NCBI GenBank assembly: GCA_946699065.1
Contig: CAMPDV010000318.1
Location: forward strand, 186,001 to 250,000
Direction: 5' to 3'
Length of the DNA stretch: 64,000 bases
From: Loxodes magnus
Taxonomy: Eukaryota > Ciliophora > Karyorelictea > Loxodida > Loxodidae
This document shows positions 5,895 to 63,818 of this stretch, piece after piece. Position 1 is the first letter of the stretch; each line of letters opens with the position of its first letter. Made by a program: the position numbers and the translations under genes. The notes beneath the pieces are model-generated. The model searched no databases and was not told where the DNA came from. It saw only the letters and a list, made by a program, of their open reading frames with translations.

Positions 5895-5897
5895 AGA

Positions 5898-7150
5898 TAA
5901 TAAAATGGCATCTAAGAAAAAATTAAATTAAAATGAATCTTCTAACTAACAATAAGATACCTTGATTGAGGTTTATTAGCTATAATCAGAAATTAAAAAA
6001 CTATAAGAAGCAGTGCAGCAATTAATTCCGCAAATTAACAGTTTAGACTTAAAAATTAACTAGCTTTAAAATTATTTAAAATACTAAATACACAATTAAG
6101 CATAAAAGCTTTGATACATCTACTTAATCATTAATCTAAAAGAATAAAAGAACAAATATTTTAAGTTCGAAATCTCAATTAAATAATTGCCAAACGAGTT
6201 ACGAGTAAAGCCATGCTTGATCCAATGGAAATTGAACAATCAAATTTAAATATTTATAAATTATTTATTATATAAAATGGATGTCGGCCGCGTCAGAAAA
6301 ACTAGTAGGTAATCTGGTGCAGTGTATACTGCCTTGCGAGTAATCTCGCACTAGATGCCACCACAGGAAGGGTGGATAAGCTCCGTTGAGACATGCCTAA
6401 CTTACTCCGAGGTTTCTCTCTAGCAATATGAAAGATTGACTGACGGACATTCTAATTGATGACTTAATAACTAATTCTTATTTGGACCTTATTTAAGAAA
6501 ACTGAAGCATTTGACTCAAGATTTTAGAATAATTATTAATAAGAAAATTCCCCATTTGGAGAAGCTGACATGACTCATTGGACTTCTAGAATTTTAGCAA
6601 GAATCATGAGAGCATTTTTCTTAATATTAAATATTAATATTGAAAAAGCTGTGCGCCAATGAGGTGCTACATGCTCTAAAATAATTTTTATTACTAAGCA
6701 TTAAAAAATTAAGCAATTAAGTAAGTAATAAAAAGAAGACCATTTATGTGCTGATTCTGTAGAAGGTTAGGGCACAAAATATAAAATTGTTGGAAATACA
6801 AAAAATTTCATAGTTGCGAAAATAAAAAGTTCTGATAAAACCTAACCAAGATTTAGTGTGCATCAGAAAGTAATCTATATAGAAAAAAATGATTGGAGTA
6901 AACTATTTATTTTAAAAATAGTAGATACAAAAATGAAGAACGAAGCAAATGTTTGAAAAGGATTGAGAAAGTAACAAAATATCAACAGTAAAGAAAGGCC
7001 AGATTAGCAGTCAAAGATTTTTTTACAAAAATTAGAACCTTGAAAAGAAATGGATGATTTCAATGAATAATAGAATTGATTTTTGGGATTTATTATAAAT
7101 TTATTTGTGACAAGCCAAATAAAAGCGATGTCACATTAATAAATTATTTT
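5898..7150 (+). mobile_element. Gag-only retroposon a, zinc knuckle present, interrupted
   Basis: ATG at 5905 follows an A-rich leader. The protein starts MASKKKLNQNESS and forms a Gln/Leu-rich coiled coil, then has the family motif P-M-E-I-E (about 6225). A perfect CCHC zinc knuckle (C-W-F-C-x4-H-x4-C, with its Trp encoded by TGA) lies at 6749-6790, but about 0.4 kb of GC-rich sequence (6278-6690) separates it from the coiled coil. The last part (7107-7135) is an inverted repeat GTGACA...TGTCAC. Flanks share only AGATAAT, so the ends are approximate. Two decayed relatives (36662-37165, 50225-50705) lack the GC-rich block, which is why I treat it as a secondary insertion. Confidence 0.7.
6278..6690 (+). 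repeat. GC-rich SINE-like insertion with strong hairpins
   Basis: This block stands out by base composition. It holds three consecutive perfect hairpins: GCAGT-GTAT-ACTGC (6319-6332), GCGAG-TAAT-CTCGC (6336-6349) and CCACC...GGTGG (6358-6375). Near its 3' end is GCGCC-AATGA-GGTGC (6653-6667). The first part aligns by eye with 31165-31260 and the last hairpin with 31088-31103, 37296-37310, 39022-39036 and 19704-19718. It splits a gag element whose relatives lack it. A TAAAAT match at both edges could be a short target duplication. Confidence 0.5.
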
Positions 7151-7612
7151 TATTTTTATTATAATTACATTTTTAAAAAAGATAATTAATATATAACAAT
7201 TTAATATTTAAATATAAAAATAGAAACTAAAAAATAATCTAACTTATCTTAGTTTAATATTTTAAACTCTGTATGCTTATATAAAATCTATATTAAGCTT
7301 ATCTAAAATTATCTAATCTTCGTATATTAATACTATATATTAAAATATATTAGCTCTTGAATTAATATAATAGGTATGTAATTTTAAGTGATATTTTAAA
7401 ATAGTTTATCATAAATTTAATTTTAGAACTTAAAAGTCTTATTATCATACTTGAAATTATTATTTTTATTTCTGTTTTTAAGCAGCAGTAAATCTAATAA
7501 ATAAGATATTTCTTTATTATTTGATTGAAGTTATAATTTATGAAGTGTTCTCTAGTAAAAGTCGAATTGATAAACAAAGATTTGTAGGAAAGAAAAGGCT
7601 TGTAAAATTACC
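7151..7612. other. AT-rich spacer
   Basis: Very AT-rich sequence with many short TA and poly-T/A runs. No motif, repeat shared with the rest of the window or convincing protein was seen. The last 130 bases could be the start of the coding-like stretch that follows. Confidence 0.5.
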
Positions 7613-8320
7613 ATGGTTATAATAATATAAAACATAAAAAGAAGGATTGCATGATATTTGGTTCTTTAATAACCTTTTTATTTAATTCATTGTGTAGAAT
7701 TTTAAGACTTTCTACTTTTTTAATTTCCATTTGAGGCTATCAAATCACTCTAATATAAAGAATATATTGAATATTTAACTTTAGCTAGCATAATTTAAAA
7801 AGATTCTAAGCTTAAGAAAAATATTATATTAAAAGGTTTTAAAAATTTGTGCTTATCAGAGTAAATAAGCTATAGACACAGATATATAGTCAATCATTTA
7901 ATAATTTATTTTCAATCAAGTCCTAAAAAGTATTGTTTCTAATGCGATAGTATGGCATATCTGTAGAAACTTTTTGAAATTCTCTTTGAATAAAGAGATT
8001 AATGGCGGTAATTAGAGGTTGAGAAAGAACGTCACGAAAATCAGAAAAGGAAGGAACAAAATTATAAATTCTAAAAAAACTAATACCTCTTTTACGATCC
8101 TTTTGGAAGGGTTACGGGAAGTCATTAGATTAGAATAAAAAGATAAAATAGCTCTTTAGAGCAAGAAATGAGATTATACTGTCTTAAAAATAAAATTTCA
8201 GCAGTATACAGAAATATCAAGACTAATGAAACGGAGGGAAAGCCGTTAAAAAAGTAATACAACATGGGTAAAAATGTGAAAAGAATTTAAAATAAAACTA
8301 CCTAATTTAGATTATCTATT
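7613..8320 (+). CDS. Coding-like stretch, unassigned, Lys/Glu/Gln-rich
   Basis: The plus strand is purine-rich and, in the frame of ATG 7613 (also ATG 7952), gives a protein-like sequence: hydrophobic N-terminal half, a possible C-x2-C pair (YCFQC, about 7930), a coiled-coil run (QRDQWRQLEVEKERHENQK) and a segment YDPFGRVTGSHQIRIKRQ. GC content rises locally at 8000-8250. No domain is recognised, and openness of the frame is not evidence under this code, so start and end are guesses. It could be a decayed transposon ORF. Confidence 0.3.
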
Positions 8321-9093: not shown

Positions 9094-12000
9094 AGTTTAA
9101 GAGCCAAATGGAGAGGCATAGCTCAGATTCCGCAGAATAAAACTTGACGATATACTCTTTACTTCTTGCTACATACCAGACAGTAACAAGACATCATATA
9201 TGAAAGATGAACCCTATGACATTCTCAATGAAATATCTAATGCGTTTACCCATAATGCTCACATCTTCCTTGGTGACTTTAATGCACTATTAGAAGACTT
9301 TGGTAGTAATCCTCTAAGCAACTACGATAATACATCCCGATTAAAATAGTTTATTCAACAGAATGATTTGTAGATTATCAACGACCCTATAGCAAATACA
9401 TTCATTCATAGAGCTAATCAATAATATTATTGTAATAATTACATTTTGAACATTTATTGATTCAACAATTTCTAGGCTCACTATGACAAACTAATCACTG
9501 ATTATATTCCTATATCTGTGACTCTTGCTTATAACGCAACCACAAATGTTACATGATAACAACAATTACTCTATAAGATTGATAAGTTACTTGTCCCAAT
9601 GGACAGATAACATTACTAAAATCAATTTTAAGGTCGTTTTTTCTGTTTTTTGACTGTAGATTCAAACAACTTAGACTCATAATATAGTTTCATATGAACT
9701 TACTTTAGAATAGTGTAATGAACCAATAGGAGTAGTTAAACAAAATACTAATTACAACAAACTGCCTCGGGATATCACTTTGAAGTATATAGCTGCTAAA
9801 AGAGCAAATTAGGAGTATAAGAAATTGATGTTTATACAAGGAAGAATTAACTAAACAGTAACTGAAACTCATTCTGTAGCCAGAAAATTAAAAAAAATAT
9901 ATATGCGTTCTTATTGAAAATGGAGAAAGCTTCAGGCTAAAGGTAAATTTCTCAAACTAAATAGAAATCAACGAACGATGATCTGTCAGGCGAAAAAGAT
10001 AATAAACCCTAAAATAAGGAATTAAATGAATTTGAATGAAGAACTTAGTAACTCCTTTATTGATAACTGAGAAGTCTTTGTGTTAAACAAACATTGAAAC
10101 GTAACATAGGAACAACTTAATTTTAGTAAACGGTAAATAGATCTCATTTATAGAAATCCTTAACTTATCAATTACCCATATTCTCACTTATAAATTTTGA
10201 ACTTTTCAAATTTTAAGAAATTCAAGAAATTATTCAACATATTCCAAATGTCAAGGCACCTAGACCAGATAGAATAAAGGGTGAACTCATCAAGTATGCT
10301 GGAGAAGAGTTACAATAAATAATTCACTGTTTTATCAATAATATGATGCGACTTTAATAAATTTCATAAAAACTGAATACCTCCATTATCATTCCTATTT
10401 TCAAGAAAGATAGTAAGAGTTATTGGAAAAACTGAAGACCAATTTCCCTTATGAATACTATGTTGGAGATCTACGAAAAGGCTTTAACAGAAAGGATTTA
10501 CAAAATTCTTTAAGAACGAAACCTCATACATCCTGCATAAATGGGATTTCTCAAGAAGAGACAAGCAGCCCACTAAATATGATAATTGTAGCAGATAATT
10601 GACCTCTATTAGAGTGAAGGGAAAGGCTAAACAAGGATACTTTTACTCTTATTGATGTTGAGAAGATTTTTGATAGTATAGAGAGAATAACACTTTTTTA
10701 ACATCTTAGAATAAAACTACCTCTGGAATTGATACTGGCACTAGAGTCTTTCTACAGTAACCTGAATTCCTCTTTTATAATCGATAGGTAAACAACTCGA
10801 CGACTTCATTACAACAATGGAGTTATGCAAGGGAGTTCACATGATCCTGTACTCTCCCTCCTATATTATGATATAGTAATCAGACAACTATAAGAAAGAA
10901 ATACACATCTAGGTATCAATCTGCACAATATGAACTTTGTATGCAGAGCGTGGACAGATGACCTTATACTCCTTTCTTTTTCTGCTTAAAGGATATAATA
11001 ACTAATAGATTAATGTAACAGAGTTTTCAGTGAATTTTTCTGTAAATAAACACTAGTAAATGTGAAGCAATACAATTTGTTAAAAAAAGAAGATCTAAAA
11101 AAATAGAATTAAACTTGAAACTGGAAGGTTAATATATCAAAATGAAGAATCAAGTGACATACCTCGGAGTTATAATACAAGAAAATGGTCTTTTGATCAA
11201 TCACTGTAAATAGAGAATTTAAACATATTTAGAATCGGTAAAGAAATGCATTTATACTCTCAGTCGATACAAGAATGTTACTCCCTGACACTTTAAAATG
11301 CTTTACATGTTTACGTTGCCTAAGGCCGAATACGGTTGAGAATTGGTTCCTTGAACTATAATGAGAGTCTCATAGTCTATGAAAGAGAAGATAAACAAAA
11401 GTATGCATATAATTGCGAGGGAGGCTTTACAGTCGCCTATCTCCTATCTCTGTCTTTAATGAGTCCTGTTACATAGACTTTAACTGGCTCCTTTCGAGCA
11501 TATTATGGCTAGTCGCTTTTTCCATTTCTGCTTTAAAATACGGAAAGAAGCTAGGACTTATCCGGAATCCGATATAGGAAGACTCTTTGAATGCAATTGA
11601 AACTAAAAATCTTTGTACTTTTAGTAAGTTAAAAGGATGTTTTAATATTACGGAATTAGCAATGACGACCAAACCATGATTTCTAATTAACTTTCTTTTG
11701 AGAATCTTATTGAAGAAAAATAAGAAACAAATTCTATTAAGAAGCAAAAATACAATATAGAGTAACTTGGAGGACTTTTGAAATAAATTACACTAAATTA
11801 AACAAAGAATATAAAAAAGAAATCATCTCAATCTTTAAATTACGAGCTAATTCTTGCAGTTTTTAATATGACTTACAAATGCGTCATTATCCTGTAAAAA
11901 ATTACCTCTGTAAATGTGGTGGAGAAGAAACATTTAGACATATCTTCGAATGTGTCTGCTATTAGGACATAGTTAGAAATATCTCTGATAAATTTCCTGG

Positions 12001-12316: not shown

Positions 12317-14237
12317 TTCTTCTATCCTTTTAATTTATGGACTTTTTCGATATTATTAAACAATTTTTATCTTTATATTGCTTGCTAATGATCTCCTATT
12401 GATCTCTATTGATAGAATTTACTGTTGATAATTTTAGGTGTGATATATTGATCCGTTAAGAAGTATTTTATTTTGAATTTTCCTTTCCTTTATGTTGATG
12501 AAGGTTGTATCTTGATTTGGATCTTTACATTCTAAAAGATAATCTTTCATCAAGTTAAATAAGTATTACCCTGCATTATTCTGCTCATACGGTAAAAATT
12601 GAGGAATACGCACGTTAAAATCCCCTAAAATTTATAATCCTTTGCTACTTGCTACTTTCATAAAAGGGTATTAATTCAGAGTCGAATGTTGTAGTTCTAT
12701 ATACTTTTATCAATGCTAGCTGATCATCAAGTATTACACCTATTAATCTTCCTTCTCTAAAATAACTCTGCTTGATTGAGATCCACTATATCCAATACTT
12801 TGGCTCTGCTGGTAATTCCATCTTTTATATAAATGCTACTCCTTTGCAATGTTTTGGGCTCAATTTTATTATTACTCTAAATCGTATATATAAGACATTT
12901 CGGCAGTTTTATCCACAAATATTTCTTAAATCGTCATAATTTCTATCTTCTTTTTACATATAAACTTGTTTAATTCTTCCTTGTTTTATTTAATCATCTG
13001 ACATTTGCTGTGTCTACGTTTAATTCATTCTATTTTATTATATTAGTATTTCCTTGTACTTCCTATTTTTCTTGATCCTCCACCCTACATTCTTAGCTTC
13101 CTCTTCTTTAATAGCGTGAAAACCATATAGTTCTAAAGTTTATTATTTTGCCTGTAATTATATCTTCAATTTTTTAACTTGATACTATATTCCTATATAT
13201 ATTTTCCTATCTTCTACCGAGATGGCGTTGTGTTGATGCATATTTCCTTCCTGTCACTGCTTTCTAGTTGTTTCAGTTTTTTTGACATATTTCCTATTTT
13301 TTTTTGACATGTATCGTTTCGCCTCAGTTTTTATTTATTTAATTTTGTAATTAAGTATCTATTAAAGTAGATCGCTTTTAAAGAAACTTAAGTATGTCTT
13401 AAACTTAATATTTTTGCTAGAAGTTCAAAGTGGAATTCTGTTTGAAGGTCAATCCTCTTCATTTTTCTTCACTTTCTTTTCCTTCGCTATCTATTTCCTT
13501 TTATAGTAAGGTATTTTATTCCTGATTTCCGAAAGCATCAACCTGATTTTACTTCCTTAGTATTTTTAATTGCTTCCTTTATAGCTTTTTTCTTAAGTAT
13601 TAATTTGAGCTATGCTCTTATTTGTTACAGTTCATACATTTTCAAATTGATGGATGACTAAAATAAGTGCTTTTACCTCCTTCGTTTAACTTATCTAGTA
13701 TACTTTCTCAATTTCTGATCTCCTTCAATTCTAAATAGGTTTTCATTTTCCCATTGACTCACGTTGTACCTTTTAAGGTTCCCATTTCTGCATATACTAT
13801 TTTTCCGTACTGCTCCAAGTGGGTTTCTACCTGGTTCAAACTTTAATAGATGTTAAGTGTTCAATGAATCAGGTGTTTCTTAATGTTGTAAAATTCCTCT
13901 ATGTTTCTTTGCTCTTTTGACAAACTAAATTTCTACTATTCAATGTTTAATTATTTGCGAATTTTGTGAGTATTTCCTTATTTTTGAATCATATAATAAT
14001 TATTCCTGTCTGAAAGATGTTCACATTTTCAATATTTTTACCATATTCTTAAATCAGATATCTGAGAAATGCCTGAATCATTTCATTTTCTTTCCTTTCT
14101 TCTGGACTGAGTTTTTGGTTGTAGAAATTTTCTTCTAAAAATTTATGGAAATAAGTAACTCCTACTCTTTTAGCATTTTTGAGCTGCTTATTATCTTCCT
14201 CATTTTATGGCATTTGCTCTTTCTTTTCTTCTTCCAT
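12317..14237 (-). mobile_element. LINE 5' half (ORF1 + endonuclease), unit A
   Basis: Minus-strand LINE reading from ATG 14237 (MEEEKKEQMPQNEEDNKQL). ORF1 is charged and helical, with frameshifts near 13920 and later. The endonuclease part follows: a start like NVRGI (about 12985-13020), KDGIT, GRLIGVILDDQLALIKVY and the catalytic-site motif ILGDFNVRI (about 12610-12640), ending NQDTTFINIKERKIQ. The copy stops at 12317, where the plus-strand LINE ends, so its own reverse transcriptase is missing here. Copies in units B, C and D have the same order. The ORF is divergent from the RING-kelch gene, 394 bases away. Confidence 0.8.
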
Positions 14238-14631
14238 TTTAATAATTTGCATAGAAAAGTTATCCTGCATGATGTTCTAAATTACCTACTTTTTTTTTTA
14301 TAGTTTGCTTAGTTTAAAATTTCTGTCCTTTTTCTTGTGCATTCTTCCTAGTAATTTAAAAATTTTACGATGGAGATGTTTTTCTTAAAAATATATCAAA
14401 GATCTGATTAAGTTGTAAAGCTCTTTCATGTCTATGCTAAATTTACCTAGCAGTTTCGATCCGAGATTGGCGGCATGTGGAATATTTGATTGCTACTTTA
14501 TATAATATCCTAGCATTATTTAAAGTATGTAAATAAAGTAATAATGTAGTTTTAGATATTTATATACTAATTTTTGATGGTAACTGTTATAAATTAGCTT
14601 TATAGCTTTTGTAGTCTAAATAATAATAAAA
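14238..14631. promoter_or_regulatory. Divergent intergenic region of unit A
   Basis: This 394-base gap separates the minus-strand LINE ORF1 start from the plus-strand RING-kelch ATG, so it should hold start sites for both. The last 60 bases are almost identical in all four units (core TGGTAACTGTTATAAATT, then TTTTGTAGTCTAAATAATAA before ATG). No TATA-type element can be told apart in such AT-rich DNA. Confidence 0.45.
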
Positions 14632-15231
14632 ATGTAAGCGTTACCAAAATGCTTAATCTGCTTAGAAGATTACAACTTAACTAATGCTCTTCCAACTGTC
14701 TTACCTTGTGGACATATTTACTGTGGTTTGTGTTTGAATACTCAGTACTGATTATAAGGCATAATGTAATGTCCTATTTGTTAAAAAGGATTCCATTTTA
14801 GATTTGATGATTTACCTTAAGAAAGTGATTTAATAAGAGTGATATTTTAAAACTAATAATACATATAAAAGATTTAAGATGCTAGATAGAAATTAAAAGA
14901 GATAAGGAGGTAAATTATGGAAAAATCTAAAACCATTACAACCAAATAATCAAACATTAGTAATACTCTCATAATACCACTAACTAATATCATCATCAAT
15001 CATTAACCAACATTTATCTACCAAAAATAACACTCAAATATTATCTAATTCTACTAATCACTAAAACCAACTATACTCTAATATAACTCATAACCACCTA
15101 CAATACTAAACTCTAAATTAACTTACAATCTAATAAGATAAAAACTATAATACAATACTAAGTAACCAAATAAGATTTAGACTAATTAACATAAACTAAG
15201 CTACCACTTTATATAATCTAACTATATTCAC
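14572..15231 (+). repeat. Near-identical 660-base island, copy A
   Basis: From about 60 bases before the RING-kelch ATG through the end of the Asn-rich linker, the four copies differ at only a few positions (one shared difference pairs A with C and B with D). The flanking LINE sequence and the kelch half differ far more. Other copies: 33206-33866, 46785-47444 and 60184-60846. Confidence 0.8.
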
Positions 15232-16026
15232 TTTTTTGATTGAGATACTTAAAAATTAAGTTTATTTAATATTTAAACAGAGTAATTACGATAAGTCTAA
15301 GTTTAAGTTATAATTCCTGCTGACAGTAAAAGTATAGAATATTAAAATAAGTTATATTTAATTGGAGGATATAACAGAAATAAAAATAAAGGAATAAAAG
15401 AAACTTGATATCTTGATTATGAAGGTAATAGTATAAAACTTAGTGATCTAAATGAGGGAAGAAGTGACTTTGGAATAGCAGCTGCTTAAAATTATCTTTA
15501 TGTGGTTGGAGGAATTACTAATATAAATCAAGTTTTATAATCAGTAGAAAAGTTAAAGATAGAAAGCTAAAGTAAATGATAAAAATTTTCTTAGTTTCCA
15601 TTTCAAATAGCAGGTTAAACTTTAGTAGTAGATAAAGATGAATAAAATATTTATTCTTTTGGAGGGTTAAATTAGAAAAAATAGATTTTAAAAGATATAT
15701 GAAAATATAACATATAGAATGATAAATGGGGTAAGTAAAATTTGAATCTTCCTGAATCTATTGCTTTTTCTATAGTTTGTTTAGAGCCTTTTGTCATACT
15801 TGGAGGTTTAAAACATTAATTTACGAATGAATATTCAAGAAGAATATACAAAAGAAGCAAAGAATAGTGGCAATAAAGTTAAATTTTTAAAGATGTTGAA
15901 GCTTTAACGGAGATGAAAATAAGAAATAACTATGGATATGTTTTTGCTTTAGAATAGAAAATAGTTTCAATAATGAGGATTGATTTAGAAAAATTGTGTT
16001 ATAGAAGTATTAAGAGTCATAACTGA
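14632..16026 (+). CDS. RING-kelch protein, copy A
   Basis: A 464-residue candidate E3 ubiquitin ligase or substrate adaptor. The N-terminus is a canonical C3HC4 RING: C7, C10, C26, H28, C31, C34, C47, C50, with W40 encoded by TGA. A short helical region and a long Asn/Ile/Thr/Gln linker (about 80-205) follow. The C-terminal half has kelch blades with di-glycine strands (LYLIGGY, LYVVGGI, IYSFGGL, FVILGG) and the blade-closing DIWKYN..NDKWG, again with a TGA Trp. The stop is TGA in CATAACTGA, conserved in all copies. Kelch propellers usually bind a substrate. All four copies have exactly 465 codons including stop, so the protein appears maintained. The gene lies between two LINE 5' ends. Confidence 0.9.
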
Positions 16027-16631
16027 TAAACATAATAATAATATCAATTTTATTAATAATATTTATAATAAATATATTCTCATATGTAAAGAAGTAGTTT
16101 AAAGATCTATAGTTAGGTAAATGTGTTACTACTTATCAAAATATCTAAAGCATCTGAAATAAATAAATAATCAAATTTTATCTAATAATCTTTAAAAATC
16201 TATTATTCAAATATTATCATTTTTCAGATACAAACATACAGCTTATAACATACTTATATTCAACACAGTCAAGAAAGCTACCTTTAAATACATCCTTATA
16301 TTCAAATTATACAATTACTACTTAGATTATTCTATTATTTATCTAATCAAATCAAAAATATAATCAAATAATAATTAAGCTATACCTATATCTAAATACT
16401 AATTAAATAATCCCTACTTCATCAATTCAATATCTTCAAATCTAAAATACATTATTTTCTTTAATCTTTTTACTAACTACTATATATACTTAAAAATGCC
16501 CCATAGCTAATAATGAAATAAAACCATTATAACTCCTATGCTCTCGATAAAAACTTTATCATAATAACTTTTCGAGATTAATATGATAAACCAATAAGAT
16601 TAAAGCAACATCGAAATAGTTTTTAAGAGGG
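16027..16631. other. Conserved spacer with TCTCGA/TCGAGA inverted repeat
   Basis: About 600 bases of AT- and C-rich DNA between the RING-kelch stop and the plus-strand LINE ORF1, present in all four units. It contains a 6-base inverted repeat TCTCGA (16542-16547) and TCGAGA (16572-16577) with a 24-base loop, about 55 bases before the ORF1 ATG. The repeat is kept in units A, B and C; in D the loop is occupied by two inserted elements. It could be a promoter or 5' terminal structure of the LINE. Confidence 0.5.
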
Positions 16632-19400
16632 ATGTCTAAGGGTGAAAAAAAGCTAGGAAAATATGATGAAGTAATAAAATTAGCAGAAAAATAAAATTCT
16701 ATAAAATAAGCAACTTTAAAAAATATAAAGTAGAAAACTCCATTTAAAGAATAATAATAATCTATCTCAATTTTATATAAAGAGACATTTTAAAAATTAC
16801 AACTCAGCCATAATAAAATAATGTGTCGCATTAATGGAACTCTTCAGTACCGATAGATAGAATTTGGATGACATATAGAAGTACGAAAAATACCAATTTA
16901 ATTAATTCTATTTTTGTTATCTGATTAATATAATTTGATAAATTCTCTAACATAGAAAATGATAATATTAATCTTTTGATATATTAGCAAGAAGAGAAAT
17001 ATTAATTAATATTCAAAAATAATAACTACTTAATTCGCTACTACAAAAGTATAGTTCCAAAAGAAAAAAGTTAAAAGTTTTCGGAAATATAAAAAAACAG
17101 TTACCATACAGTAAAAGAAATAATATAACTTGATGGTAGAAAAACTATATATTTAGAATTATCAGAAGCCACTTATCCAGAAAATATTCCTACTTAACTG
17201 GAAGAAAAAAATTTATGAGTAAAGTTAAGTCTTCCGGCAATATGATAATATGTAATCTGTCTAAAAATTGGAAAAATACCAAGTAATGAAGAAGATAAAA
17301 AGAAATAAAGTTAATAATCAATTATGCTTGAACATAAAAAAGTGGTAAAATATGTAACAAGAAGTAACAAAATAAAATAAAAGATACAGTAATAAAAATA
17401 GAAAACCTAAAGAAATGCTAAAGATGAATAGAAAGCAAAAACTTGAACTCTAAAAAATAAAAATGCTTAAAAAATTATTTAAATTACGCGCAAGATAGGC
17501 AACAATTAATAGAATAATAAAATATTATTTAATTGAATAAATGCTTAGGAAAAAATCATTTAAGTTCATTAGATCTTTGGAAAAGCCAAAGTTTAACATC
17601 ATGAAAAAAAATGGATTACCACAACCTATTAAAAAATAAGCTTCAATAAATAACTAACTTGTCTCAAAAACTTAAAAACGCAATTAATTTTAATAATAAA
17701 TAAAAAAGTAATATCAGAAAAGATAGTACACTTAATCCTAAAAATAAATAAAAATATTAGAGTAGTTCAGTTTTGTAAAAGACTAAGCAAATTACCTTAA
17801 TTTGATATCTGATATTAATATGAAGGTCAAAAACTGAATATCAAGAGAATTTGACTATCTAAGTCTTATTAATTATAGGAACTGATAATGTAAGAGGAAT
17901 CATGTCGAGCAAAAAAAATTTAATAAAATTCGTACTTTAAAAAGATATAGACATTATGGCGACCAAATAAATTTTTGTAGATTCAATTAAAGATATGCTC
18001 TAAAAATTCGGATATCATTCAGTTATAAAACCAGGAACTAGATTTAGTAAATGAGTGGTTTTATAAATTAAAAAACAACTCTTATGTAGAGTTACAAAGC
18101 ATGATATAAATGGATTAAACTAAAATAAAATATTTAAAGACGGTAGAATAATTTGTATACGTATTTATGATAAAAATGTAATTATCATGAATATGTGCCT
18201 ACACGTTTGAGCCCGATTAATTAATCCATTTATGGACCTAAAATAATTTAAATACTTAACAAATAATCTAAGCTTATAAAATATTATATTAGGAAATTTC
18301 AATGGATAAATACCATAAATTCTACCAAGTAAATTAAATCTATTAGAGTAGTAGTTATTAACTATAATAAATAAATTCGAACTGGAATTCAATAATCCAG
18401 CATAAGACCCAACATAGATTACTACTACAGGAAAAGAAAGTTTAAAATTAACTATTTTTTAACGGATCAATGAATCACTTCGAGCATAGTTAACATAAAA
18501 GATTTTTAAAAGAGAATACTAGATGATCATGAAGCTGAGTAACTAATTGCTAAAATGGTAGAAAAAAGCAGATATAGATCATAAGTAAAAAGGTTATATT
18601 ACTAAAAATTGAAAATTTGAAAAATATAGAAAAGTTTAAAAAGTGAGCTAAATTTACAGATTCTTCGAAGTTCAATAAACTAACTAATGAATCATACTAC
18701 GAGAAATAATAAGAATTAATATAAGAAGGGGTTAAATAAATTTTTGGATATGTTACTAATAATTTAAGAAAATAAATATTTACAGAAGAAATAAAATGTT
18801 TAAGAAAATATAAAAAAGTATCAAAAAAAGTAAAAAATTTAATAAGATAATTCAAATTAATATTTTATATTAAATAAACATTAGATAGGAAGCAAAAATA
18901 AAATATATGAAACTGGAGAGCATCGATAGAAAAATAAATTTAACATTTTCATGGACTGAATCAATAAAGGTAATTTGAATGCAACTTGGGAGATATATTT
19001 TTCATATTTAACTGTAATAATCTTATTAATTAATATCTAATAAAAAGGTATTTTAAACAACTTTATCAGGAATCAAAATTATTTCTTTAAACTTAAGAAA
19101 ATATTTTAGCTATTTTATATTGAATTCATTCTATTTTATTAAACTCACTCTTATATTAAACTTTTTGATAGAATAACAAAATTAATTTATTAAGAAAATA
19201 CTTTTAAAGAAGAAAGAAAAGTCACTTTAATTTTATAAATAATCAGTTTAAGTAGCAATTAACTAAAATGTGATATAATAATTTATTTTATAAATCCATC
19301 TAATCTATGAAAAGTGTTAAATGAATATAAAGAAATACTAACTAATAAGAAAAATTTACTTTAGTAAAGTTAAAGCAAAGATTAAAATTATAAGCTGCAT
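16632..19400 (+). mobile_element. LINE 5' half (ORF1 + endonuclease + linker), unit A, plus strand
   Basis: ORF1 starts MSKGEKKLGKYDEVIKLAE (ATG 16632) and is a lysine/glutamine-rich helical protein with a remnant of a zinc knuckle near 17240 (C-L-K-I-G). The endonuclease is well preserved in frame 1: TDNVRGIMSSKKNLIKFVL (17884 on), DIDIMATKQIFVDS, then IILGNFNGQIPQILP (about 18286-18330), where the usual GDFN has become GNFN. A linker ESYYEKQQELIQEGVKQIFG (about 18690) matches the minus-strand LINE of unit D. The reverse transcriptase is not continuous here; the RT piece at 20586-21600, same strand, may be its remainder, separated by gag element b and decayed DNA. The Asp-to-Asn change suggests an inactive endonuclease. 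Confidence 0.75.
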
Positions 19401-19593
19401 AAAAAGCTTAGTAAATATATTTAAAATATTAATAAATATATACTATTTAATTAATTATTTTTCCTTAAATTATCTTTATTAAAATTAGTCTTTATTAGTA
19501 ACTAAAATAAATAAATAAATAAGTTTTCTATTATATATCTTTCATTAAAAAATATCTAATTATACATTAATATTAAAAAGCATTTTATAAAAG

Positions 19594-27150: not shown

Positions 27151-27199
27151 ACTTTAATACTTATAATATAAATATATTTATAATGTTAATTCCTTTCTC

Positions 27200-42088: not shown

Positions 42089-42101
42089 ATATAATTATAA
42101 T

Positions 42102-49811: not shown

Positions 49812-50224
49812 TAACTGTTATATTTTTTATCACTCCAATCTTTTTAAATAATAGTTTAAATCTCCAATTCGAAAAGATAATCCTTTTAATGCATTATACA
49901 ATTAATTCAATTATTTGCAAGAGATATAGCTTTACTTTTTGATTATGAATGATTAAATTCTTTTATTCTTATTTTTATCTTTACTATCCTATTTATATTT
50001 CATTTTTCATTTAGTTTTCTAAAAATTTCTAATCAAATTTTTACATCATTTCATCTTACAATTTATTACTTATTTACAACTCCTTCCTTATCAAATTATT
50101 AGCTCATTAAACTGAGATAATACTAACTTTTAAGATCTACAACCCTTCAAATCATAGAAAACCTAACTATAAGACCTTAATAACTTCTCTTTATCTCAAT
50201 AATTAGAGCACATTTTTTAATATT

Positions 50225-50705
50225 TTCTATAAATAATGAGTGAAATACATTAATCTAAAAAGTAAAATAATAAAATTCATTTTTTCTTATGTTTAAATGT
50301 TTAGCAATTAATTAAGCAAATAAGCAGCATTTATTTTAAAATTAAGTAATAAATCTTTAATACAGAATTTAGCTTAAAAGCTTCTACACTTCTATTTAAT
50401 TAAGAAAAAAACAGAAAATAAAATATAAGAAACTAGAAATCTTAATTAAATAAACCATTAATAACTTATGATTAAAGCTATACACAATCCAATGGAGATT
50501 GTGTAATCAAACTTAAATACTAATAAAACTAAAAAAATTAGATAATTAATCAAGTAATGAAAATAAAATCAATTATTGACTTTGTAGAAGACTAAAAAAC
50601 ATAAAATAAAGATGTTGAAGATACCAAAAAATAGAAAAAAGATAAAAATAAATAATTTCTTAAAAAACCTAACTTAGATTTATTTTGCGTTTAAAAGGAC
50701 ACATA
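50225..50705 (+). mobile_element. Decayed gag-only element (type a) in unit C
   Basis: Sister of 36662-37165. The knuckle reads Y-W-L-C-x4-N-x4-C. It ends at the same GGACACATA junction, after which the receptor gene fragment starts. Confidence 0.6.
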
Positions 50706-56529: not shown

Positions 56530-56803
56530 TCTACTTTAATTATTTTTATATTCCTTTTCAAGTTTTATTTAAGTTTTCTTAATTAATTTCATCTAAGAAA
56601 ATATTTAATTAATATTTCTATCTTTTTTTGATTCAATCTAAATTTTCTCCTTGCTTCTTATCTCACTTTAATTCAATTATCAATTTATCAGCATCCTTAT
56701 CTAATTAAGATATATACTTATTTCGCCTGATATTAGAAATATTTTCTTAGTTTTATTATTTCTGTTTTTTATTAGTATTTTCTCACTTAATTTGTTACAA
56801 AGC
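56530..56803 (-). mobile_element. LINE linker region, unit D (continuation beyond element h)
   Basis: Read on the minus strand across the element h insertion, the frame continues CGFVTNQVRKYQQKTEIIKLR, matching FGYVTNNLRKQ...IKCLRKYKK of the unit A plus-strand LINE. It therefore belongs to the LINE at 57763-59846, split by element h. Confidence 0.65.
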
Positions 56804-57749
56804 AAAATTAAAAAATGGAAGGCTTCAAAAAAGGTTTCTACACCATCTCCAAGAAGGAGAGGAAACCAGAAGCCACTCTCAGCTAGTCTTCTTTTACTTA
56901 ACTCTTACCTTTTTCTTAATAATCCGGAACATAGGTTCAAGAAGAACATAAGTAATCTAAGAAAATTACCCATCCAATCACCCCAACGTCTCAGGAGAAA
57001 CCCAGAAAGCAGACTTCGTCTGCTTTGCACCAGGAGGTATCAAAATTTAATCCTTCTGGCCAGATGAGCATGGAATAGCTCATCAAAGTAGTACTAAATC
57101 TCCAGGAAGAGATCAAGAAGCTAAAGAAGGACAATGAGAAGATAATGCAACAGTTTAACCTACCAGAAGGAATAGAATAAAGACTCATGTCCTAGGAAAG
57201 AGAACTAAGCGTTTTTTGGAACATATCACAAGATCAGAGTTGCTAATCCCAAAATTAGCTTCAGAAACAGACAGAACTGGACAATAGACTTGAAAAAATA
57301 GAAGAGAAACTGCAACGACAAATAGAGTAAGATGAGCAAAGAAGTGATCCAATGATGATTGAGAAGGAAGAAACAAGAAAACCTAAAAGAATTCAGAAAA
57401 GATGTTATTATTGTAATTCGGGAGAACATTTATAAAGAAGATGCAAGAAATTCCTAAGTTTCAAGAATTAATACTGAACAAAGCAAAGAAAATTATAAGC
57501 GCAATAAAGGAAAAAACATCAACTGTAATAGAAAAGAGATAGAGAAAGACTTTATATGAATGAGCTTGGCAAGATCTATAGAAAGAAATCAGAACAGAAT
57601 GAAAGATGAAACCGAAGACAATAAGACCAAGTGAGAGAGAGAGGATATCAAATTTTTAATCATTTTTATATAATCCCGGAGCAATCCGGCGATCGGCAGG
57701 AAGAGGTGAAATTCCTCCAAGATTGCCAAACTTAATTTTATTATTATTA
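56804..57749 (+). mobile_element. Gag-only retroposon h, 13-bp target duplication, inside a LINE
   Basis: Flanked by TTTGTTACAAAGC (56791-56803) and TTTGTTAAAAAGC (57750-57762), one mismatch. Starts AAAATTAAAAA before ATG 56815 and ends in hairpin CCGGA-GCAA-TCCGG (57676-57689, a GNRA loop), a second stem AGGAA...TTCCT (57698-57716) and a TTA-repeat tail. It interrupts the unit D minus-strand LINE ORF2 between its endonuclease and RT parts. Confidence 0.9.
56815..57732 (+). CDS. Gag-like CCHC protein of element h, best preserved
   Basis: About 306 codons in one frame from MEGFKKGFYTISKKERKPEA. A Ser/Gln/Pro-rich N-terminus, coiled coils (LIKVVLNLQEEIKKLKKDNE; LDNRLEKIEEKLQRQIEQDE), motif P-M-M-I-E, a perfect knuckle C-Y-Y-C-x4-H-x4-C (57403-57444), a highly basic RNA-binding tail and GKIYRKKSEQ. 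It is noticeably GC-richer than its surroundings, which suggests a young insertion. In-frame TGA occurs at 57475 and near 57610; either could be Trp or the stop. Predicted role: nucleocapsid-like RNA binding. Confidence 0.85.
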
Positions 57750-57762
57750 TTTGTTAAAAAGC

Positions 57763-59846
57763 CACACATCGCTTTGGTTGTTTCTTGGATGTATTCTGAT
57801 TATTTTTCATAGTATGCTTCGCTATCTAATATCTCGAATCATTCTTTGAATATTTCTTGAACCTTTTATTGTTTTAATTTTTTAAAGTTTATCCTTTTAA
57901 TTTATGGGCTTTTACGATATTCTTCTGCAATTTTTATATTTATTTTACCTGGCTAATAATCTCCTATTGGTCTCTATTGTTAGAATATTGTGATGACAAT
58001 GCTAGGTGTTATATATTGATCTGTTAAGAATTAATCTATAATGAATTTTCCTTTTCCTTATGTTGTGATGAAAGTTGAATCTTGATTTTTATCTTTACAT
58101 TCTAAAAGATAATTTTTCATAAAGTCAAGTAAGTATTAGCCTGTATTTCTCTGTTCATGCGATAAAAATTGGAGAATATGCACATTAAAATCTCCTAATA
58201 TTAAAATTTATTATCCTTTGCTGCTATTATGTATTATTATAGACCTTCGTAAAAGGGTATTATTAGTTAATCAGAGTCAGACGTTGTAGTGTTATATGCT
58301 TTTTTCAATGCTAGCTGATCATCAAGTGTTAAAACTATTAATCTTCCTCTCTAAAATAATTCTGCTTGCTTTAGATCCGCTATATCCAATACTTTGGTTC
58401 TGCTAGTAATTCCATTCTTTTATATAAAATGATACTCCTTTGCAGTGTTTTGTGCTCAATTTTATTATTGCTATTAATCCATACATATAAGGCAATTCAG
58501 CAGTTTGATTCACAAATATTTCTTAAATTGCCATAATTTCTATCTTCTTTTCACACATAAATTTTTTTAATTCCTCCTTGTTTGATTTTATTCCTCTGAC
58601 ATTTGTTGTACCTATGTTTAATTTTGTCTATTTTATTATATTAATATTTCCTTGCACTCCTATTTTTTTTTATCCTCCTACTCTGCATTTTTAGCTTCCT
58701 CTTCTTTAATAGCGTGAAAACCAAATCGTTTTAATATTTTTTATTTTTCCTGTACTTATATCTTCATCTTTTTTACTCGATGTTATCTTTCTTACTATTA
58801 TATATTTTTTATCTTTTTTAAGACAGCGTTGTGTTTATGCATACTTCCGTTCTGTCACTGCTTTCTAGTTGTTTCAGTTTTGTTTTGCCATATTTCCTAT
58901 TTTATTTTCTGTTTTTTGTGACATTGATCTTCTCTTCTCAGTTTTATTTATTTGACCTTGTAGTTAAATATCTATTAAAGTCGATCGCTTTTAAAGTAAC
59001 TTTAGTATGGCTTAAACTTCTTGCTTTTGCTAGAAATTCAAAGTGACATTTTATTTGAAGGTTAATTTTCTTCAGCTTTCTTCAATTTCTTTTCCTTCGC
59101 TATCAGTTTCTCTTTATAGTTAGACGTTTTATTCCTGATTTCTGAATGCATCAACCTGATTTTACTTCCTTAGCATTTAAATTGCTTTCCTTATAGCCTT
59201 TTTCTTAAGTATTAATTTGTGCTATGCTCTTATTTGTTACAGTTCATACATTTTCAAATTGATGGATGACTAAAGTAAGTGCTTTTACCTCCTTCGTTTA
59301 ACTTATCTAGTATACTTTCTCAATCTCTGATCTCCTTCAATTTTAAATAGTTTTTCATTTTCCCATTGGCTCACGTTGTACCTTTTACGGTTCTGATTTC
59401 TGTAAAAACTATTTTTCCGTACTGTTATAGAGGGTTTCTACCTGGCTAAAAACGTGAATATATGTTAAATGTTCAATGAATCGGATAGTTCTTAATGTTG
59501 TCGAATTCCTCTATATTTCTTTGCTATGTTGGCATTAAAAAATTTCTACACTTCCATGTTTAACAATTTCAGTGTTTCATAAATGTTTCCTTATTTTTTA
59601 ATCCTATAATAATTATTCCTGTCTAAAAGATTTTCACACTCCAATATTTTACTATATTCTTAATTTAGATATCGTAGAAATGCTTGATCGATTTCATTTT
59701 CTTGCATTTCTACTGGACTGAATCTTTGCTTGTAGAATTTTCTTCTAAAAATTTATTGAAATAGTTAGCTCCTACTCTTTAGCAGTTTTGAGCTGCTTAT
59801 TCTCGTCATCGTTTTATGGTATTTGCTTGTTCTTTTCTTCTTCCAT
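57763..59846 (-). mobile_element. LINE 5' half (ORF1 + endonuclease + linker), unit D
   Basis: Minus-strand LINE from ORF1 ATG 59846 (MEEEKNKQIPQNDDENKQL) through the endonuclease (equivalent of the GDFN site near 58190) to the linker EAYYEKQSEYIQETTKAMCG (about 57770-57830), where element h interrupts it. This copy extends further 3' than A or B, which shows the minus-strand LINE originally carried more of ORF2. Frameshifts are present. Confidence 0.75.
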
Positions 59847-60245
59847 TATAAGGATTTGCACAAAGCTGTTGTCTATTTTGATGTTCTAAATTGCCTACAT
59901 TTTTTCATAAGTTGCTTAGTTTTAACATTTCTGTCCCTTTATTTAGTGCATTACTCATAGTAGTTTAAAGACTTTGCGACAGAAACGTTTTTCTTAAAAA
60001 TAATATCCAAGATCTGATTAAATTATAAAACTATTTCATGTCTTTATTAAATTTACCTAGCGGTCTCGATCCTAGATTGGCGGCATTCGAATTGTGAGAT
60101 TGGTACTTGATATAATATCCTAATATTGGATTATTTAAAGTATGTAATAAAGTAATAATGTAGTTTTAGATATTATTGACTGTATTTTTGATGGTAACTG
60201 TTATAAATTGCCTTTATAGCTTTTGTAGTCTAAATAATAATAAAA

Positions 60246-61640
60246 ATGTAAGCGTTACCAAAATGCTTAATCTGCTTAGAAGATTACAACTTAACTAATG
60301 CTCTTCCAACTGTCTTACCTTGTGGACATATTTACTGTGGTTTGTGTTTGAATACTCAGTACTGATTATAAGGCATAATGTAATGTCCTATTTGTTAAAA
60401 AGGATTCCATTTTAGATTTGATGATTTACCTTAAGAAAGTGATTTAATAAGAGTGATATTTTAAAACTAATAATACATATAAAAGATTTAAGATGCTAGA
60501 TAGAAATTAAAAGAGATAAGGAGGTAAATTATGGAAAAATCTAAAACCATTACAACCAAATAATCAAACATTAGTAATACTCTCATAATACCACTAACTA
60601 ATATCATCATCAATCATTAACCAACATTTATCTACCAAAAATAACACTCAAATATTATCTAATTCTACTAATCACTAAAACCAACTATACTCTAATATAA
60701 CTCATAACCACCTACAATACTAAACTCTAAATTAACTTACAATCTAATAAGATAAAAACTATAACACAATACTAAGTAACCAAATAAGATTTAGACTAAT
60801 TAACATAAACTAAGCTACCACTTTATATAATCTAACTATATTCACTATTTTAATTGAGGAATTTAAAGATTAAGTTTATTTAATATTTAAACAGAGTAAT
60901 TACGATAAATCTAAGTTTAATTTATAATTCCTTTGGACAATAATAGTATAGAATATGAAAATAAGTTATATTTAATTGGGGGATATAACTAAAATTAAAA
61001 TAAATGAATAAAAGAAACTTGATAATTCGATTATGAAGGTAATAGTATAAAACTTAGTGATCTAAATGAGGGAAGAGGTGATTATGGAATAGCAGCAGCG
61101 TAAAAATATCTTTATGTGGTTGGAGGAATTACTGAAGGTTATCAAATGTTATAATCAGTAGAAAAGTTACAGATAGGAAACTAAAGTAAATGATAAAACT
61201 GTTCTTAATTTCCATTTAGAATAGCTTTTTAAACTTTAGTAGTAGATAAAGATGAATAAAATATTTATTCTTTTGGAGGGTTTAATTAGAAAAAATAAAT
61301 TTTAAAAGATATATGAAAATATAACATATAGAATGATAGATGGGGTAAGTAAAATTTGAGTCTTCCTGAAGCTGTTGCTTAACCTATAGTTTGTTTAGAG
61401 CCTTTTGTCATATTTGGAGGTATGAAAAATGCATTTCCGAAAGAGTATTCAAGAAGAATATATAAAAGAAGCAAAGAATAATGGTAATAAAGCTAAATTT
61501 TTAAAGATGTTGTAGCTTTAACGGAGATGAAAATAAGAAATAACTATGGATATGTTTTTGCTATAGAATAGCCAACAGTTTCAATAATGAGGATTTATTT
61601 AGAAAAATTGAGCTATAGAAGTATTAGAAGTGATAACTGA
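60246..61640 (+). CDS. RING-kelch protein, copy D
   Basis: 465 codons including the TGA stop, as in A-C. RING cysteines and His intact. The kelch half is the most divergent (for example ITEGYQM after the second di-glycine strand; SHN before the stop has become SDN) but keeps the frame. Followed by the conserved spacer and by the inverted repeat whose loop has received elements g and i. Confidence 0.9.
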
Positions 61641-62177
61641 TAAACATAATAATAATATCTATATTATTAATAGTATTTATAATTTAGTTTTATATGTAAA
61701 GAAGTAGTTTAAAGATATATAATTAAGTAAATATGTTACTACTTATTAAAGAGGTTAATCTACTAAATATCTTAATAAGAGGATATAAATAAAGAATCAA
61801 ATTTTATCTAAATATCTTTAAATTCTATTATTCAAACATTATCATTATTCAGATATAAACATACAGCTTATAACATACTAATATTCAACATAGTCAAAAA
61901 ACTATTTTTAAATACATCATTATATTCAAATTATACAAGTACTACTTAGATTACTATTTAACTAATCAAATCAAAACTATAATCAAATAATCATTAAGCA
62001 ATACCTATATCTAAATACTAATTAAGTCATCACTACTATCATCAAGTCAACATCTTAAACCCTTAAATACATTATTTCCTTTAATCGTTTAAATTAAAAT
62101 CTATATACTTAAAAATATCCCTTGTATAATCAATAATAAAGCCAAGCCATTATAATAGCTATATTCTCGATAAAAAT
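61641..62177. other. Conserved spacer of unit D, split
   Basis: Equivalent to 16027-16550. TTCTCGA (62164-62170) is the left arm of the inverted repeat; the right arm TTCGAGA is at 63831-63837, on the far side of elements g and i. Confidence 0.5.
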
Positions 62178-62189
62178 TCAATCTTAAGA

Positions 62190-63027
62190 CAAAAAAATTG
62201 AGAAGAACATTCGTCTTTCTAAGATATAACAAAGAAAAACAAGAAAAAAGTGACGAACGAGGAGCTAAAAAAGCAAAGACAGTATAGAGAATCTAGCTCG
62301 TCTTCAGAGGGAAAATTAATGGTTGATCCGAATGAACAATAAAACCCTGAAACCAAAAATAACAATTTACTCCAAAGCGAAATCGAAAAAATGAAAGCAA
62401 AAATTGCAAAATATGAAGAGATATTTTTTAATCAAGGAGAAAAAATCCAGGAGCTAATGAATTACATAGAAGACTAAAATAACGAACTGCTAATTCTCAA
62501 AAGTTAACTGATTAAAAACTCAGTAGTAACAGAAAATTAACTTTATGAAATGTCGTAAACTAACTTCAATTAATCACAAAGAATGATCATAGAAGAAGAT
62601 TAGCACAAAACACAACATTAAGAAAAATAAAATTAAGAAAAAAATGATATAAACACAAACAAAAGAATTGAGATGCTGGAGAAAAAAGTTTTTAAAAATA
62701 GAAATTAGAAAAACGATATAAAAATTGTTTGGTACTGCTAATCTTGGTATCATTTACTAAGACATTGTAAGAAATGAAGATAACTCAAGTACAATGAAGA
62801 ATAAAGGACCTGAAGAAACTTAAACAAATTTTGGATAACTGAGTATGCATATATAAATAGAAACTATGAACAAGAAACTAAGAGAATCCTTCGTGGTAGC
62901 TGTCCACTTTAAAAAAAGGTCGTGGAGAACAACCACGGAAAAAAACTTGTCAGCAGAAACCTGGTTGAAAACCCAGGATATGCAAACTTTAATTTTACAT
63001 TTAGTTAAAATAATAATAATAATAAAC
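62190..63027 (+). mobile_element. Gag-only retroposon g, 12-bp target duplication
   Basis: Flanked by TCAATCTTAAGA (62178-62189 and 63028-63039). The start codon position reads ATT after an A-run, and a frameshift near 62252 precedes the well-preserved part (RESSSSSEGKLMVDPNEQ; coiled coil EKIQELMNYIEDQNNELLIL; knuckle W-x2-C-x4-H-x4-C, first Cys changed to Trp). Two 3' hairpins CGTGG...CCACG (62921-62937) and CCTGG...CCAGG (62960-62977) precede ATGCAAACTTTAATTTTA and a TAA-repeat tail. Closely related to f. Confidence 0.9.
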
Positions 63028-63054
63028 TCAATCTTAAGATAAGATAATATAATA

Positions 63055-63818
63055 GATTATCTTGACTTCAACATTATTAGTTTTGTCACAAATCAAATTT
63101 TTGTTAAGTTTAATAAAATTCACCTTTTTCTTTAAATTTGTTCCGATCTTCGTTATCATGTCTCTTGCCAAATATGAATCTTTTCTTTCTCAGTATCTCT
63201 TCTGTGTCGAATCCTAACCAACTTCTGTTGAAATTACTTACAGACACTTGATTTAAGGAAGTATTTTAAGTGATTTACAATCATTTTTTCTGAATATTCT
63301 GCCATCTTGCGTGCATCAAAATTTTTTTTAATTATACCATTATTTTTGGCTCTGGTATTCTTATTTTTTTTAATACTACCAAAAGTCTCTTATCTTGTGT
63401 CCCATTTTTTTACAGTATCAGCATGCTATTTTTCTTTTCCTGATATTAAATTACTATGGTATTTTTGCTTCTATGTCCATCGGATCGTTTCCTTGATTTT
63501 GCATGAACTAAGAAATTCATTTTTCACAAATTTGTTGATTATATTATCGAAAAATCTCTAATTTTGCTTCGGTCGCTTAAACTCTCTAATTAATTTGTTC
63601 AGTCGAAGGAATAAAGTTAAGTTGCTATTTGATCTCATGGCTATTGATGTGAATTCCAGTGATGCTTTCCTATAGGACTATTATATTTCTCTGTAGCTCT
63701 TGAAACGAATATTATAGCTTTTGGCTCTCACTTAAGAGAAATTCCAGATCGATTAAGTAATCATTTTGAGCTTTACTTGGCTAGATAGGTGATGATTACT
63801 TTTTCATTACCATTTTTT
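63055..63818 (-). mobile_element. Gag-only retroposon i, 8-bp target duplication
   Basis: Flanked by ATATAATA (63047-63054 and 63819-63826). It starts only five bases (AAAAA) before its ATG at 63813, so the transcript is nearly leaderless. It lies 15 bases from the right duplication of element g, in the opposite orientation, in the same inverted-repeat loop. Confidence 0.85.
63061..63813 (-). CDS. Gag-like protein of element i
   Basis: About 251 codons in one frame: MVMKKQSSPIQPSKAQNDY, coiled coil (LEFLLSESQKLQYSFQELQ), motif D-P-M-D-I-E, knuckle C-W-Y-C-x4-H-x4-F (63382-63423; last Cys replaced by Phe, Trp by TGA) and DGRIFRKNDCKS, a variant of the G-x-I-Y-RKK motif. Most similar to elements a and B/C decayed copies (GHKI in the knuckle). 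Confidence 0.75.

Follow-up and report, generated by a model that had tools for sequence, protein, structure and literature searches.

How do mobile elements that encode a single gag protein and no copying enzyme multiply in a genome? The question is raised by a 64,000-nt stretch of Loxodes magnus DNA (contig 318, positions 186001–250000; hereafter the window), which carries eleven such elements, a to k. The window was compared with genomic loci L001–L079 and with a genome of 705,730,643 bp (the L. magnus MAC assembly is given as 706 Mbp; PMC11441545), the genome search yielding 564–5375 first-look candidates per family, 40 of which were scored for each. Frames were read with TAA and TAG as glutamine and TGA as tryptophan (tryptophan or stop at the ends); TGA stands at codon 37 in 26 of 29 c copies. 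Since this code has no ordinary stop codons, an open frame alone is little proof. We consider it likely, with a probability of about 0.78, that the elements are long-lived, multilineage gag-only non-LTR retroposons that are nonautonomous and moved in trans.

The Window Contains Ten Families of Gag-Only Elements

The eleven gag-only copies delineated by the first-pass annotation are real, but they represent only ten separate lineages: b (19588–20217, minus strand; diverged or 5'-truncated) and c (37176–37970, minus strand) are 93% identical over 606 bp and fall in one family. The limits of the units are best seen in c, where 29 sister copies have in common a unit of 869–894 bp, relative to which the window copy carries an internal deletion. 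The DNA around these copies is mostly unrelated, and their flanks match few other loci at most, mainly segmental duplicates. Among the scored rows of the genome searches, recurrent sharp ends were found for c, d, e, f, g, h, j, and k and for the 5' end of a. With g (62190–63025, plus strand), 12 of 40 rows stop at 837–839, while the remaining rows are mainly whole-locus copies. The coordinates assigned beforehand proved exact to the base for g, h (56804–57748, plus strand), j (25216–26037, minus strand), and k (26194–27150, minus strand), and those of a, c, d, e, and f lay no more than about seven bases from the genome-search boundaries.

The lineages differ in age. The youngest family is f (42095–42937, minus strand), with 98–100% identity in its 40 scored rows, compared to 79–81% for a. 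The window copy of f has a private 1-nt indel, at which the frame is intact in 18 of 18 sampled sister copies. Element a (5893–6900, plus strand; 3' end approximate) is split at 6262–6692 by another short repeat, present in locus L013 too; 19 rows (79–81%) start at query 34–43, i.e., window 5893–5902, and the MEIE, CCHC, and YRKK motifs lie at 6225, 6749, and 6878. Element d (38932–39780, minus strand) is homologous to c, and e (40417–41130, minus strand) is missing ∼0.13 kb of its sister copies. A single open frame runs in j from the ATG through CCHC to W-RKK; k is frameshifted, as are most of the h copies read (16 in addition to that in the window). Element i (63055–63818, minus strand; putative ends, taken from the first-pass annotation) adjoins g and is gag-like, with MDIE and a CCHC-like motif.

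The Elements Lack a Polymerase, and the LINE Copies Examined Lack This Gag

Across the window and L001–L079, gag was recorded at 84 places (E ≤ 1e-4), 54 of them followed by at least 700 nt. Among these 54, an endonuclease/reverse transcriptase (EN/RT) of LINE-A, -B, or -C type was found within 2.5 kb downstream of gag at one place, 2343 nt away. The earlier claim that the elements have neither RT nor endonuclease held. Without a copying enzyme, the elements probably borrow one from other elements.

We compared the elements with the resident LINEs, scoring 150 of 3403 RVT_1 candidates and 56 of 16,241 LINE-C candidates, of which few were read. Twelve RT loci (L009–L020) comprised nine of LINE-A type, two LINE-B, and one LINE-C. 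Five of these copies were truncated; the rest, five LINE-A and two LINE-B, extended to a common 5' end. In none of the twelve did the gag of these elements precede EN. The gag was likewise absent from the 5' regions of ten LINE-C copies, one of them truncated and no more than eight of them distinct. LINE-A is 5.5 kb long and is probably one of rnd-1_family-27 and -19, which are described as 5- to 6-kb L. magnus LINEs with EN and RT in PMC11441545, an article whose main text has no word starting with "gag." These LINEs inhabit the same genome as the gag-only elements but, unlike them, are autonomous. Past its first ∼25 codons, LINE-A ORF1 encodes a different protein; in the 303 residues of it tested, the gag HMM found no match. 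The gag genes of h, L017, and L033 match the LINE-A 5' end (73–79%) over their first 46–80 nt only, start region included.

The 3' ends, too, were unshared in the LINE copies examined. When the c, g, and h ends were searched by BLAST in the window and the twelve LINE loci, they matched neighboring gag copies and otherwise only short, mostly simple-repeat stretches, and a descriptor of the 3' stem discussed below matched no LINE; nothing similar was seen in two LINE-C-like copies. A terminal hairpin with AAACT behind it is found in LINE-C and in five of six gag lineages. The descriptor itself required AAAC, and this likeness is too little to name LINE-C as the donor. LINE-C was also considered as an ORF2-only partner of the gag elements, a candidate that we dropped, its 5' end not being defined. 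Thus, neither an RT-bearing parent nor the mobilizer was found among the LINE-A, -B, and -C copies examined. Separately, other short repeats in this DNA carry the LINE-A 3' end in the fashion of SINEs.

These data bear on a HAL1-type origin, in which the families, or their recent common ancestor, would be deletion products of a resident LINE carrying this gag together with ORF2, a parent missed by the sampling. The gag starts that match LINE-A speak for such an origin, as does the small part of the LINE candidates scored and read. We nevertheless think it unlikely, given the different LINE-A ORF1, the LINE copies that reach their 5' end without this gag, and the unshared 3' ends. Of the HAL1-type interpretation in the first-pass annotation, four points are supported: the units are gag-only, they form many families, most of these insert in a TPRT-like way, and the proteins are conserved between families. 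The simple derivation from a resident LINE minus ORF2 is not supported, since the LINE copies read have ∼25 codons in common with the elements at most, in LINE-A.

The Predicted Gag Protein Is Conserved between Families

The predicted protein begins with a disordered N terminus and a long coiled-coil-type helix; a PMxIE-type motif and a zinc knuckle come next, and then a helix and a small beta hairpin that is ended by the signature G-x-I/L-Y/W-(R/K)KK. In an AF2 model (mean pLDDT 68), the helices span 86–176 and 211–244 and the hairpin 246–256. The CCHC knuckles reported earlier in a, h, j, and k are present, and C, H, C, G, and K are invariant in 8 gag sequences from seven lineages. Proteins of different families are 18–46% identical; phmmer detected homology between c and d (2e-14), f and g (1e-30), e and f (3e-7), h and j (6e-9), and a and i (2e-6), while the L029 element joins c (7e-8), h (1e-6), and j (3e-17). 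The knuckle weakly matches Ty3 Gag (E 0.0056); nothing was found for the gag proteins among 5.8 billion proteins at E ≤ 0.01, nor, for the c and h gags, above cut-off in Pfam. By sequence and model, the product would be an ORF1/gag-type protein.

To assess selection, we compared pN/pS between families, which was 0.43–0.74 in frame and 0.84–1.24 in shifted frames (nine of nine pairs). The shifted-frame control is biased by alignments built in frame 0, and elements recur among the nine pairs. Within c, omega was 0.65 for singletons (p = 0.02) and 0.77 for shared variants (not significant); within h, the values were 0.88 and 0.83 (both not significant). The dN/dS analysis proposed in advance thus yielded a synonymous excess between families, but weak and mostly uninformative values within them. 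Judged from these comparisons of sequence, gag is conserved as a protein between families.

A SINE-like reading, in which the frame is accidental and the RNA rather than the protein propagates, would suit the shortness of the elements, the cheapness of open frames under this code, the frameshifted h copies, the weak within-family selection, and the company of short repeats with a LINE-A 3' end. It is nevertheless very improbable: the family proteins are homologous with invariant knuckle residues, the synonymous excess appears only in frame, and, where a SINE would have a pol III head and no conserved protein, the window has no Rfam match at the gathering threshold.

Insertion and a Shared 3' RNA Structure

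Target duplications flank j (17 of 17 bases matching; 25199–25215 on the 3' side and 26038–26054 on the 5' side), k (14 of 14; 26180–26193 and 27151–27164, likewise), h (13 of 14; 56790–56803 on the 5' side and 57749–57762 on the 3' side), g (13 of 14; 62176–62189 and 63026–63039, likewise), and e (12 of 13); that of f is about 12 and overlaps an ATT tail. Those of e, g, j, and k are clear by eye, and an empty site lies at 16555–16564, in a sister repeat unit that lacks inserted g and i. In the h family (17 rows), the mean duplication match was 12.65, compared to 7.99 with other partners (0 of 5000 permutations); the score was at least 11 in 13 of 17 rows, or about 10 of 13 distinct sites, and a clear duplication was absent at three of the 13. 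Conversely, target duplications were undetectable in 24 copies of the c family (p = 0.35; 5' and 3' flanks of 45 and 60 bp, respectively). These were 24 of 30 copies, five being left out as duplicates and the window copy being unmatched. Thus, of the duplications proposed originally, six were upheld, and the 8 bp at i are too few to be counted. The hallmarks of TPRT, a target duplication and a 3' tail, are found in e, f, g, h, j, k, and the L033 element but not in c, so the c family at least may insert differently.

A 3' stem-bulge-stem is common to e, f, g, h, and two further elements, i.e., six lineages. It lies at 57695–57727 in h and 62953–62983 in g (plus strand), and at 42140–42169 in f and 40455–40480 in e (minus strand); in e it fits the descriptor only, and the minimum-energy fold does not form the stem. 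Since RNAalifold on MAFFT alignment A2 gave zero consensus pairs, structures were compared lineage by lineage. The descriptor matched 12 times in 659,938 bases (both strands counted; L001–L008 left out), always at gag-element 3' ends, compared to 0, 0, and 0 matches in three shuffles of single letters within 200-base blocks. It had been fitted by eye to five lineages, L017 being the sole match independent of the fitting, and it matches 6 of 17 h rows (the window, L056, L057, L061, L063, and L065). Folding z-scores are modest (f −0.5, g −1.2, e +0.2).

Another idea is that a host gene encoding a knuckle protein gave rise to processed copies, with which starts close to the ATG, 3' tails, and target duplications would also be compatible. 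It is barely credible, given ten divergent families whose candidates each number in the hundreds to thousands, a 3' structure common to six lineages, and the blank protein search.

Under our preferred reading, that of gag-only retroposons moved in trans, transcripts would start just 5' of the ATG, the gag protein would bind the element RNA, and a LINE-encoded endonuclease and RT would copy it, the donor EN/RT probably recognizing the 3' structure. We more tentatively suggest, as a possibility somewhat short of an even chance, an old RT-free branch in which about ten lineages diverged while gag-only, with the protein under selection and, in part, one 3' stem and one donor RT. If this is true, both halves of the LINE machinery evolve as separate mobile elements. 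Some of the 757,000 repeat copies, mostly unclassified, reported in the L. magnus assembly (PMC11441545) may likewise be gag-only elements.

Comparison with Known Systems

The gag-only elements work like HeT-A or HAL1. HAL1, the parallel drawn in the first-pass annotation, is apt as an ORF1-only element, but the closer parallel, not named there, is HeT-A of Drosophila, whose Gag has a CCHC knuckle. HeT-A is a telomeric non-LTR retrotransposon for which RT must come from another element (PMC5537684). In contrast to its head-to-tail arrays at chromosome ends, copies of the c, g, and h families are spread over many contigs, the c flanks being mostly unrelated, and most families of the dispersed Loxodes elements have target duplications. 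The Loxodes elements, moreover, measure 0.8–0.95 kb, have hardly any 5' leader, and fall into ten families. HAL1 (half-L1) of mammals is similarly nonautonomous, encodes ORF1p only, and arose several times independently (PMC5753468). However, it derives from L1, whereas no LINE with a matching gag was found among the copies examined here; instead of ORF1 and both ends, the h-type gag genes share only their first 46–80 nt with LINE-A. Stringent-type LINE/SINE pairs have a common 3' stem-loop (PMC4176376 and PMC5135761) and resemble the Loxodes elements in that a simple tail follows a conserved 3' stem, but the latter encode a protein, and no LINE sharing the stem was found in the LINE-A, -B, and -C copies.

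Freeloader elements are thus already known in flies and mammals; the difference here is many lineages with a partly common RNA tail. Cis-preference, RNA protection, and competition for RT come into consideration as reasons why a borrower of polymerase would keep its own ORF1. HeT-A and HAL1 provide few independent cases, while this one genome provides about ten lineages; since these differ in age and their candidates number in the hundreds to thousands per lineage, comparison among them can measure what a gag is worth to an element that lacks a polymerase.

Results

Gag-only elements are discrete genomic units without a polymerase

The elements of the window (186001-250000 of the contig) are real units of the genome. 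Whole-genome DNA searches (705,730,643 bp) gave first-look candidates, not verified copies, for every family (2375 for c, 5375 for h, 2296 for g, 663 for j, 1650 for k, 1754 for d, 1980 for f, 564 for i, 626 for a, and 1079 for e), and the 40 best candidates per family were scored. Whole-locus copies aside, match limits coincided with element limits: at window ~56804 and ~57750 for h, mostly at query 50-58 and 875-877 of 901 for j, mostly at 48-54 and 893-901 of 941 for d, mostly near 24 and 866 of 901 for f, and near 54 and 1007 of 1051 for k. For g, 12 of 40 matches finished at query 837-839, the remainder being mostly whole-locus copies, while a gave 20 whole-locus matches, one broken one, and 19 at 79-81% starting at query 34-43. 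For i, 28 of 40 spanned the full query plus flanks and the others nearly all of it; its ends are putative. The genome-wide search proposed by the first-pass annotation yielded sharp limits for c, d, e, f, h, j, k, part of the g matches, and the 5' end of a, and none for i; of its eleven separate elements, b is a member of family c.

We also asked whether genomic copies continue into a reverse transcriptase (RT). When 30 c loci were compared together with 1.5-kb flanks, the 29 sister copies had in common a unit of 869-894 bp with sharp ends, a TA-rich 5' end, and an (AACTTT)n tail (L021-L050), and the flanks matched at most a few other loci. The window copy of c, with an internal deletion, measures 670 bp; a 5' end rich in TTATTATA is common to c and d. 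Elsewhere, a c-like element begins directly after another element's tail (L063, L016). Using phmmer (E<=1e-4) on the window and L001-L079, other loci of this genome, we found 84 gag places, many of them copies of c and h, of which 54 were followed by 700 nt or more of sequence. An endonuclease (EN)/RT of the type of LINE-A, LINE-B, or LINE-C, three EN/RT-bearing LINEs of this genome, lay on the same strand and no more than 2.5 kb away at only one of the 54 (window a, 2343 nt away), bearing out the absence of polymerase and endonuclease noted earlier. Likewise, no RT was found in the L033/L080 element, which is complete from ATG to tail and has ~18-bp duplications by eye.

Target duplications, claimed earlier for e, f, g, h, j, and k, were recovered by eye for j (17/17), k (14/14), g (13/14), e (12/13), and f (~12). 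For h, 5' and 3' flanks matched with a mean score of 12.65, against 7.99 for mismatched partners (17 rows; 0/5000 permutations), and 13 of the 17 rows scored at least 11, as did ~10 of the 13 distinct sites that the rows represent. By contrast, no target duplications were detected for c (mean 8.46 vs. 8.34, p=0.35; 24 distinct copies). For g, an empty site exists in a sister repeat lacking the insertion. A repeat unit of 4-5.5 kb has four window copies (84-88%; 12323-17102, 31684-37167, 45325-50706, and 57890-62187), the fourth of which bears the g+i insertion and so reveals the empty site.

The gag proteins form a family conserved between lineages

Sequence comparison indicates that the gag proteins are one family. 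Among 3024 six-frame pieces, phmmer linked c-d (2e-14), f-g (1e-30), e-f (3e-7), e-g (3e-5), h-j (6e-9), and a-i (2e-6), and the L029 element tied together c (7e-8), h (1e-6), and j (3e-17); such chains unite c/d, h/j, and e/f/g internally, plus c/d with h/j. Motifs tie e/f/g and a/i to the other families, with no pairwise E-value, e/f/g also through 3' structure, and k is tied by motifs and one L016 place matched by both k and L029 queries. C, H, C, G, and K are invariant in an alignment of eight sequences. For the h protein, AF2 (8 sequences, mean pLDDT 68, pTM 0.25) predicted disorder at residues 1-81, helices at 86-176 and 211-244, and a hairpin at 246-256. The best PDB matches of the gag profile were all weak (Ty3 Gag knuckle, E 0.0056; designed coiled coil, 0.0084; nucleocapsid protein, 0.064), and a search of 5.8 billion sequences returned no match.

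The L. magnus macronuclear assembly of this karyorelict ciliate is reported at 706 Mbp, with ~2,700 RVT_1 copies, two complete LINE families, and 757,000 copies of unclassified repeats (PMC11441545). RT matches in our genome search each contained ~20 stop codons, as expected under a code in which TAA/TAG=Q and TGA=W or stop. Since open frames carry little information under such a code, we placed weight on boundaries, homology, and substitution patterns. In LINE-A EN frames the tryptophan-like place of GDxNAH is TGA (L009, L010, L014, L016, L017, L019, L020), consistent with a tryptophan reading of TGA within genes.

Between families, pN/pS lay at 0.43-0.74 when the gag frame was read and at 0.84-1.24 for the two remaining frames (9/9 pairs), a contrast that gag-frame alignments favor and in which elements recur across pairs. 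NG86 omega, near saturation, was 0.31 for f-g, 0.37 for c-d, and 0.52 for e-g; e-f and h-j were saturated. The dN/dS test suggested for the gag ORFs gave a signal between families, while within them it was weak or absent, as expected for dead copies from recent waves. The ATG-to-hairpin length of c was 847 nt in 25 of 29 copies, and most h copies read had frameshifts. In its knuckle region the window copy of f has a 1-nt indel of its own, the frame being intact in 18/18 sampled sister copies; the 40 scored f matches were 98-100% identical, so f was recently active.

Element ends and the search for a donor

One 3' design is common to e, f, g, h, the L033/L080 element, and the L017 element: an outer stem, a 5' bulge of 2-4, an inner stem ending in GG, a loop of 7-8, CC, a 3' bulge of 3-5, the outer stem, and AAAC. 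Pairing is kept while letters vary across lineages. A descriptor fitted to five lineages gave 12 matches across the window and L009-L080 (659,938 bases, counting both strands), all at gag-element 3' ends, and 0 in three single-letter shuffles. Speaking against a shared structure, RNAalifold returned no consensus for the 3' ends, the minimum-energy fold of e differs from the shared design, and fold z-scores were modest apart from h (-2.35). A different strong hairpin occurs in k (z -3.6), and LINE-C has its own (z -5.3).

At the 5' end, the h, L017, and L033 genes match LINE-A over 46-80 aligned nt (74-79%), start region included, resulting in FK.GFYT-type N-termini; past this start, LINE-A ORF1 is a different protein. 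The match may reflect an internal promoter or an N-terminal function common to both, or else a LINE front that was captured.

No donor, i.e., the RT source presumed to move the gag elements, was found among the LINE-A (5.5 kb), LINE-B, and LINE-C copies examined, of which five LINE-A and two LINE-B copies reached a common 5' end. LINE-A looks like a stringent-type LINE, since its 3' end is common to several short repeats; this end was absent from c, g, and h. Short repeats of different kinds finish with the 3' hairpin and tail of LINE-A, in the manner of SINEs paired with a stringent-type LINE (window 31084; L013:437; L016:2111; L031:2411; L039:1446; L067; L069; L078; L079), and window 6262-6692, interrupting element a, belongs here through similarity to the L013 repeat. 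LINE-C starts straight after a LINE-A-like 3' end in L067, L069, L078, and L079. In L071 and L073-L076 it is preceded by a conserved stretch, which in L071 is an open frame of 2 kb rich in Q; the 5' ends of LINE-C are perhaps modular. Five LINE fragments in the window (9188-11540 and 17872-18881 on the + strand; 12341-13036, 29879-30653, and 57734-58651 on the - strand) are of LINE-C-like, LINE-B-like, and LINE-A/B-like types.

Discussion

Our literature search, confined to open-access main articles, returned nothing under the label 'gag-only' for non-LTR elements. Gag-only non-LTR elements that borrow RT do exist, as described for HeT-A (PMC5537684) and HAL1 (PMC5753468), and the kind of element is therefore already known. 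Compared with these, however, the L. magnus elements differ in lineage number, dispersal, and small size, in having no parent found and a protein unmatched among 5.8 billion sequences, and in carrying one 3' structure across six lineages.
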